Of a stretch of DNA of 43,267 nucleotides, positions 26,567-40,352 are shown piece by piece (the stretch's first letter is position 1; every line of letters starts with the position of its first letter). This DNA comes from Halobacteriales archaeon SW_7_65_23 (GTDB taxonomy: Archaea; Halobacteriota; Halobacteria; Halobacteriales; Haloarculaceae): NCBI GenBank assembly GCA_003022725.1, contig PXSQ01000004.1, forward strand, positions 1 through 43,267. Direction: 5' to 3'. Position numbers and translations under genes: made by a program. The notes under the pieces were generated by a model. It saw only the letters and a list, made by a program, of their open reading frames with translations, did not search any database and was not told the origin of the DNA.

Positions 26567-26583
26567 ATTCTTTTACTCACCAG
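26566..26583. repeat. Repeat family X, copy 3 (partial)
   Basis: ATTCTTTTACTCACCAGT is an exact 18-base match to 40369-40386. It sits at the point where the truncated MDVTDP gene loses similarity, so it may mark a breakpoint. A small stem GTCTC/GAGAC follows it. Confidence 0.5.
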
Positions 26584-26645
26584 TCTCTGCTCTCTGCGGA
26601 GACAGACCTCTTCCGCCTGGATTCTCAATTCGGGCCTCGGCCGTG

Positions 26646-36911: not shown

Positions 36912-36944
36912 CTCACGCTCACCACCAGGGGTGGTTCGCGTGAG
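36912..36944 (+). promoter_or_regulatory. RNA hairpin over the rps28e start codon
   Basis: CTCACGC (36912-36918) pairs with GCGTGAG (36938-36944) and ACCACC (36921-36926) pairs with GGTGGT (36930-36935), separated by a TC/TC internal loop, with loop AGG. The GTG start codon of rps28e (36940-36942) is in the 3' arm of this 13-pair stem, so folding would hide it. A TATA-like AAGATATT near 36861 would place this hairpin in the transcript. Confidence 0.6.
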
Positions 36945-37116
36945 CGCTGAGGAATCTGAAGACGGCGGCTCCACGCCCGCTGAAGTCATCGAACTCGTGG
37001 GCCGGACGGGGATGCACGGCGAGGCCATGCAGGTCAAGTGCCGCATCCGCGAGGGCTCGAACAAGGGCCGGATCATCACCCGGGAGGACAATAATGCCCC
37101 GAGAACGGCGCTGTGA
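36940..37116 (+). CDS. rps28e: Small ribosomal subunit protein S28e, 3' end aberrant
   Basis: Residues 1-48 ([20 protein letters not shown], then [20 protein letters not shown] and GRIITR) are normal S28e. After GRIITR the family continues N-x-x-GPVREGD-x-L-x-L-RETEREA for about 25 residues; here the frame reads [10 protein letters not shown] and stops at 37116, inside rpl24e. The missing stretch looks deleted so that IITR joins directly to the rpl24e Shine-Dalgarno region (GGGAGGAC). The start is GTG at 36940. This is either a real truncation of a normally conserved protein or an assembly deletion. Confidence 0.8.
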
Positions 37117-37708
37117 CTTCTGCGAGAGCCAGATCGAACCCGGTACCGGCACGATGTTCGTCCGCACCGACGGGACGACGATCCACTTCTGCTCCTCGAA
37201 ATGCGAGAACAACGCCAACCTCGGCCGCGAGAGCCGCGACCTCGAATGGGCCGGCCAGGAAGTCGAGGCACCCGAGGGAGAGGAGGGCGAGGACGAAGAA
37301 GCTGACGAGGAAGAAGCGGCTGAATCCGAGAAAGCAACGGAACAAGTGGTGGAGAGCGTAGACGAAGCGGAAACGGCCGAAGCGGCTGAAGAAGAGGCGG
37401 AAGCTGACGAGGAAGACACCGAGGAGGAGGCCGAAGAAGCTGACGACGAGACGGAGTCCGACGAGACGGGGGAAGCCGAGGCTGACGAGGAGACGGAGGA
37501 CGCCGGGGAGACGGAGGACGCCGGGGAGACGGAGGACGCCGGGGAGACGGAGGCCGACGAGGCCGACGACGAGACGGAGGGCGACGACGAAACGGAGGGC
37601 GACGAGGCCGACGAGGCTGACGAGGAGACGGAGGACGCCGAGGCCGACGCCGCTGAGGACGAGACTCAGGACGACGAGGACGGCGAGGAGACGGAGGCCG
37701 AGGCATGA
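37094..37708 (+). CDS. rpl24e: Large ribosomal subunit protein L24e with long acidic tail
   Basis: Residues 1-60 are a full L24e zinc-binding domain: C7, C10, C33, C37 ([33 protein letters not shown]). Normal haloarchaeal L24e ends soon after. Here about 140 further residues follow, made almost only of E, D, A, T and G, including three exact EDAGET repeats encoded by an 18-base tandem repeat at about 37490-37550. The tail is in frame up to the ndk overlap (ATGA). Its start overlaps the aberrant rps28e end by 23 bases. Confidence 0.92.
37490..37553 (+). repeat. 18-base tandem repeat within rpl24e
   Basis: Three and a half copies of GAGACGGAGGACGCCGGG run head to tail and encode EDAGET units in the acidic tail. 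Related GACGAGACGGAG words surround it, suggesting growth by slippage or unequal recombination. Confidence 0.85.
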
Positions 37709-39257: not shown

Positions 39258-40235
39258 ATGACCAGCCTGTCCGAGGTCTACGAGGGGGGGGTCAGGACTG
39301 TGGTCGATCGCCGACAGCGGTGGCTCGGCATGACGCTGTTCGCCGTGGGCGCGTCGATGGTCGTCGCCGCGATCACCGTCGCGACGACGGATCTCTCGAC
39401 GTGGTTCGGGTTCGACGTGATCAAGGCGCGCTGGCACGCCGGCGTGCTAGCCGGAGTCGGCTTACCAGCTACCTTCGTCGGCATTTTCGTCGTCCTGCCG
39501 GCGAGCGGCGCGACGCGCGCCGCGGCGGCGATCGGCGCCAGCCTCGCCATGTTCGGCGTCGTGCTGTTCGCCTACGCCTACCCGCGGCGGTGGCTCTCGA
39601 ACGATCCGACGTTCGCGCTCGGGACGATCGTCCTGTACTCCGTCGGGACGTTGCTCACGTTCTGGTGTCTATTCGTCGCCATCGCGACGTTCAAGACCCG
39701 CAACGATCCCGGCGGCACCGCACGCATCGAGATCACCGAGGAAGGGAAGGTCCGCGTAATCAACGCCGGCCCGGCCGACCCCGAACCCGAGCCCAAACTG
39801 TCGGGCTCGCGGCCCTCGATCCCGGGCTTCGGGAGCGTCGGCCTGTTCGGCAACGATCCCGACGGGTCGGTTCCGACCCAGACGAACGCCACGGGGTCGA
39901 CCGCCTCGTCCTTCTCGTCGCCCGAACGGACCGACGACGGCATCGTCATGACGGAACCGGCGAGCGACGGCGGCACCGCGATCACCGGCGACGGCGGGGA
40001 CAGCGCCGTTACCGGCGACAACCAGGCCGACGTGTCCGGCCCCGACGCGGAGATCCTCGACGCTGCCGAGGAGCGCGGCCAGCCCGACCGCTACTGTGGC
40101 AACTGCACGCACTTCGAGTACGTCCAGGTCGACGGCGAGATCGAACCCTACTGTGGACTCTACGCGGACCTGATGGACGACATGGACGCCTGCCGGGAGT
40201 GGGAGGAGCGCGAGTCAGGATCGCTCCCGCGCTGA
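39258..40235 (+). CDS. Membrane protein with C-terminal cysteine cluster
   Basis: A 325-residue protein starting MTSLSEVYEGGVRTVVDRRQ at 39258. Four hydrophobic helices span about 25-150. A cytoplasmic acidic, Gly/Ser/Thr-rich region of about 110 residues follows. The end has CGNCTHFEYVQVDGEIEPYC and CGLYADLMDDMDACREWE, a probable metal site. Haloarchaea have conserved proteins of this layout without known function. Its TGA is shared with the first base of the inverted repeat at 40235. Confidence 0.75.
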   Translation: MTSLSEVYEGGVRTVVDRRQRWLGMTLFAVGASMVVAAITVATTDLSTWFGFDVIKARWHAGVLAGVGLPATFVGIFVVLPASGATRAAAAIGASLAMFGVVLFAYAYPRRWLSNDPTFALGTIVLYSVGTLLTFWCLFVAIATFKTRNDPGGTARIEITEEGKVRVINAGPADPEPEPKLSGSRPSIPGFGSVGLFGNDPDGSVPTQTNATGSTASSFSSPERTDDGIVMTEPASDGGTAITGDGGDSAVTGDNQADVSGPDAEILDAAEERGQPDRYCGNCTHFEYVQVDGEIEPYCGLYADLMDDMDACREWEERESGSLPR

Positions 40236-40344
40236 TACTGTCGGACGTAATTTCGTGGAGTCACGCGTCACGGTCAGCCGTTCACCCGTGCGAATACAGC
40301 CTGGAGAGTGTCACGATGTGACACAGAGTTACGTCCGACAGTAT
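40235..40344. repeat. Inverted-repeat element of family X, copy 2 (possible MITE)
   Basis: A 110-bp segment bounded by perfect 16-base inverted repeats ATACTGTCGGACGTAA and TTACGTCCGACAGTAT. Inside is a perfect hairpin GTGTCAC-GAT-GTGACAC (40308-40324). No target duplication is visible. The right terminal sequence also occurs at 129-144. Confidence 0.65.
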
Positions 40345-40352
40345 GAATTGTC

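Follow-up and report, generated by a model that had tools for sequence, protein, structure and literature searches.

The short ribosomal protein S28e gene of a haloarchaeal draft genome is probably a local assembly error

In the draft genome of Halobacteriales archaeon SW_7_65_23, the gene for the ribosomal protein S28e leaves its reading frame after 48 normal codons. We consider this short S28e to be a local assembly error and not a real feature of the organism, with a probability of about 0.93. The assembler or scaffolder would have directly joined two pieces at a weak point and dropped 73 bp that the organism has, and rps28e would then run out of frame and end 10 codons further on, inside rpl24e. 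The reads would be expected to contain the missing 73 bp, and S28e is very probably normal in the living cell. We prefer an assembly loss on account of similar losses in further housekeeping genes of this draft. The DNA analysed, here called the window, is the stretch of 43,267 nucleotides at positions 1 to 43,267 of contig PXSQ01000004.1. The whole draft has 2.63 Mb in 115 contigs and is 79% complete by a tool estimate.

The assembled rps28e gene and the missing 73 bp

The features around the joint of rps28e and rpl24e are the following.

36940..37083, plus strand: rps28e, 48 normal codons with a GTG start; PF01200 positions 4-40 of 64, E 2.8e-14
37083..37084, no strand: joint without the 73 bp found in the sister drafts; 1 bp overlap, from the alignment to the sisters
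37084..37116, plus strand: ten out-of-frame codons and a stop (37114-37116), read through the leader and start of rpl24e
37083..37087, plus strand: GGAGG, the likely Shine-Dalgarno sequence of rpl24e; in the sister copies it lies within the last S28e codons
37094..37708, plus strand: rpl24e, open frame with a long acidic C-terminal extension; PF01246 at residues 3-53 of 204, E 1.7e-19

The preliminary description had S28e cleanly cut into the leader of rpl24e, and this was confirmed. The 48 normal codons end in GRIITR and are followed by the Shine-Dalgarno region and the ATG of rpl24e (37094, inside the shifted rps28e frame), which are read out of frame and bring the total reading to 58 amino acids. 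The 48 codons agree with the copies of the sister drafts QS_4_66_20 (G008) and SW_10_66_29 (G011), save for two fewer glycines. With 53.3 bits, the 58-residue reading passes the curated cut-off of PF01200 (25 bits), and its first 48 residues match the S28e/eS28 family. It differs from the family in that profile positions 41-63 are absent from the assembled sequence. The full-length domain of about 60 of the 64 positions is not reached, Pfam matching 4-40 here versus 4-63 in the sister copy. Among solved structures, archaeal eS28 chains match residues 16-77 of the intact sister S28e used as query. The S1-like OB fold would probably need the lost third of S28e, and a real loss of positions 41-63 would probably abolish this fold.

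When the draft was aligned to G008 and to G011, 73 bp were gone at 37083/37084 in both cases. The alignment breaks at 37083 and one base (G) is shared at the joint. A loss of 73 bp is not a whole number of codons and changes the frame. The preliminary description had estimated that roughly 75 bases were lost; the loss itself stands, and its exact size is 73 bp. In the closest sister copies, S28e ends in GGQ and its stop codon overlaps the start of rpl24e. A deletion between long direct repeats was considered and rejected, as the joint shares 1 bp only.

A sister stretch of 106 bp was then searched against the draft. Its two flanks matched at the rps28e joint (20 and 14 bp, 100%) and the remaining 39 of the 41 rows were weak matches of 14-33 bp elsewhere in the draft. 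The missing 73 bp were not found at any other place in the draft. The segment is present at the same place in the close relatives and is cleanly lost here.

The acidic extension of rpl24e (window 37253-37705) comprises about 151 residues beyond the L24e domain, 87 of them Asp or Glu. The G008 copy is extended as well; that of G011 has 63 bp less of the extension.

S28e in the Halobacteria

Exactly one match to PF01200 per genome was found in 391 of 391 Halobacteria genomes. The E-value was at most 4.3e-27 in the 390 other genomes versus 2.4e-13 in this draft, the full length of S28e in all 390 being read from the E-values and not from match ranges. The difference between the short match of this draft and those of the other genomes is far beyond chance.

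Within the genus, 17 of the 18 genomes had PF01200 with one match each, and G014 had none. By its sequences, the genus appears to hold cultured Halovenus, because its members have S28e and the flanks in common with named Halovenus records. Judged by S28e and its flanks, the MAGs QS_4_66_20, SW_10_66_29 and QH_2_65_14 (G009) are the closest relatives. A short S28e as a trait of the clade was rejected. The nearest relatives carry the full gene, and the short match of G010, which is without its start (positions 21-63), adjoins a run of 70 N.

The preliminary description had proposed an alignment with related S28e and a search for another rps28e, and both were run. G008 and G011 carry the full gene with 73 bp more, and no second PF01200 match was found in the draft. 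It had also offered a second gene copy as an explanation. An intact rps28e would then lie in the unassembled part of the genome, where the incompleteness of the draft could have hidden it, and the copy described here would be a pseudogene. We consider this exceedingly improbable, given the single match in every one of the 391 genomes and at most one in each genome of the genus. The present copy also adjoins rpl24e, as the sisters' only copy does.

Clean losses elsewhere in the draft and in its sisters

The window and 20 other stretches of the draft (427 kb in all) were compared with stretches of the sisters, 80 from G008 (1.31 Mb) and 20 from G011 (0.30 Mb). Against G008, 155,694 draft bases were aligned at a mean identity of 88.8%, and against G011, 49,706 bases at 90.6%. 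Over the comparisons of the draft, G008 and G011, 60 clean breaks were listed. Rows were left out (14 of 60) if the lost segment had more than 3 hits in the sampled DNA and so counted as multi-copy, or if it contained N; 46 were kept. A 112-bp gap in locus L182 failed the stricter joint rule and was also left out of the count. The draft was without 8 single-copy segments of G008 (46, 47, 55, 66, 67, 73, 76 and 100 bp) and without 6 of G011 (47, 72, 73, 79, 102 and 462 bp). The 47- and 73-bp losses are the same sites in both comparisons, which gives 12 distinct single-copy sites of 46-462 bp, scattered over unrelated genes, and 8 of these losses change the frame. This strongly supports the option, already named in the preliminary description, that bases were lost in assembly. 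The four in-frame losses could be true differences, and some of the frame-changing ones could be real mutations.

For 7 of the 8 frame-changing losses, the intact sister frame was recognised by Pfam. The tblastn halves listed are the two halves of the intact sister protein, as matched in this draft.

Oxidored_q6 (NuoB): 55 bp lost; tblastn halves in different frames
ThiF-family enzyme: 76 bp lost; interrupted frame seen
YGR210-like GTPase with TGS domain: 79 bp lost; tblastn halves in different frames
Zinc alcohol dehydrogenase: 47 bp lost; tblastn halves in different frames
M50 protease: 100 bp lost, just before the matched domain; interrupted frame seen
DeoC-family aldolase: 67 bp lost; broken frame follows from the size of the loss
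S28e: 73 bp lost

The eighth, a 46-bp loss in locus L173, lies near the C-terminus. The tblastn match passes through it almost to the C-terminus, and it was not counted as a broken gene. Coding frames were chosen by acidity, from a complete list of frames, and by running Pfam on the intact frames of the sisters. For NuoB, the ThiF enzyme, the M50 gene and the aldolase, the acidity-based choice gave the antisense and the sense frame was picked by hand. An automatic frame choice was dropped; it was often antisense in the GC-rich DNA, and both flanks matched in only 4 of 10 and 3 of 8 of the draft's own losses.

The two sister drafts were also compared with each other, with 140,345 bases aligned at 96.5% identity. 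G011 was without 18 single-copy segments of G008, 12 of them frame-changing, and G008 was without 4 of G011, 3 of them frame-changing. In the kept rows against this draft, G008 was without 6 segments and G011 without 4. Judged by reading the residues, the genes hit in the sister drafts presumably include those for a threonine synthase, UvrC, a MenD-like enzyme, an adenosylhomocysteinase and a 2'-5' RNA ligase. With so many freshly broken core genes, evolution is not credible as the cause.

Two sister losses correspond to places in the window where the frame is unbroken. At window 32066 (L208 position 5604, G011:C21), a frame of 536 aa has lost 88 bp in G011, where its two halves are in different frames. 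At window 21773 (L202 position 11068, G008:C8), G008 is without 91 bp of a frame that G011 also has intact. From its residues, we take this gene to belong to the 2'-5' RNA ligase family.

For a control, the break caller was applied to 45 loci of cultured strains, covering the rps28e neighbourhood only. The 27 pairs used had at least 86% identity, covered 71,360 aligned bases and were not independent of each other; no break (0) was called in them. The analyst had sorted the loci into cultured strains and MAGs by their record titles. Among 35 MAG loci of the same neighbourhood (6 non-independent pairs, 17,896 bases), 1 break of 82 bp was called, which fits the reading as assembly loss.

Gaps of 111 bp made up 5 of the 60 rows and were considered as a signature of the assembler. 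This was rejected: three of them were multi-copy (25, 96 and 96 hits) and two were not. The presence or absence of dispersed repeats therefore partly explains the differences between the genomes. The window itself has a dispersed MITE-like repeat of about 113 bp at 40233-40346, whose 16-bp ends (40235-40250 and 40329-40344) are perfectly inverted. The draft has at least 39 more copies of it with 94-98% identity (40 of 297 candidates scored), and copies also occur in G008 and G011. Another dispersed repeat, about 66 bp long (26567-26632), has at least 39 further copies in the draft with 92-97% identity (40 of 176 candidates scored); G008 and G011 also contain many of them. No Rfam family matched at the gathering score in the whole window.

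Origin of the draft and competing explanations

The sampled 427 kb of the draft contain 8 runs of N, and the draft is therefore a scaffolded assembly. No N run is present at the 37083/37084 joint. The right end of the window (43267) directly abuts a run of 94 N in the contig, a scaffold gap. An excerpt of a study of Atacama salt crusts at the sites Sw, Qh and Qs describes 100-base paired reads and assembly with IDBA_UD (PMC5532433). The names of the sister drafts fit these sites, and from its relatives we infer that the present draft comes from the same study and hence from IDBA_UD. According to excerpts of two further papers, idba-ud assemblies commonly contain short deletions (PMC4384745), and local assembly errors are suspected of being especially prominent in assemblies of this type (PMC7111523). 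The short local deletions described there are like the losses observed here, which are clean, short and unrelated to gene function. They differ in that they were identified by read mapping; here the losses emerged from alignment to the sister drafts, and the assembler was inferred.

If the deletion were real and fixed, the organism would have a 58-residue S28e without its last third, or would live without a working S28e. The clean joint without N and the short match as the sole S28e of the draft agree with such a deletion. However, the matches of all other genomes (390/390) are typical of the full protein, the kept 48 codons look normal, and six other recognisable genes are broken alike in the sampled part of the draft. 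That the organism lives with a 58-residue S28e, as the preliminary description had considered, is very unlikely, because these six genes would need the same clean break. The place of the protein in the ribosome also argues against a fixed deletion. According to an excerpt of a structural study of the archaeal 30S subunit, eS28 forms one side of the Shine-Dalgarno duplex chamber together with uS7, h28 and h37, one wall of the exit chamber; uS11 contacts eS28 (PMC7005279). It is hard to credit that this haloarchaeon has ribosomes in which S28e truly ends after residue 48, that the chamber wall is absent or substituted in them, and that rpl24e starts through its overlap with the shifted frame. 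Alternatively, a real deletion present in some cells of the natural population might have entered the consensus, other cells keeping the full gene. Judging from its relatives, the draft was probably assembled from a metagenome, and mixed strains are therefore possible. Such a deletion would nevertheless leave the similar losses in many genes and in the sister drafts unexplained, and we regard it as highly improbable.

With a local assembly error as the preferred explanation, the short S28e is ordinary as biology. The draft and its two sister drafts represent their species in the genome set searched, and many stretches of some tens to several hundred bases are cleanly missing from them, a good share within housekeeping genes. 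A core gene reported as lost or shortened on the basis of such a draft needs read support.
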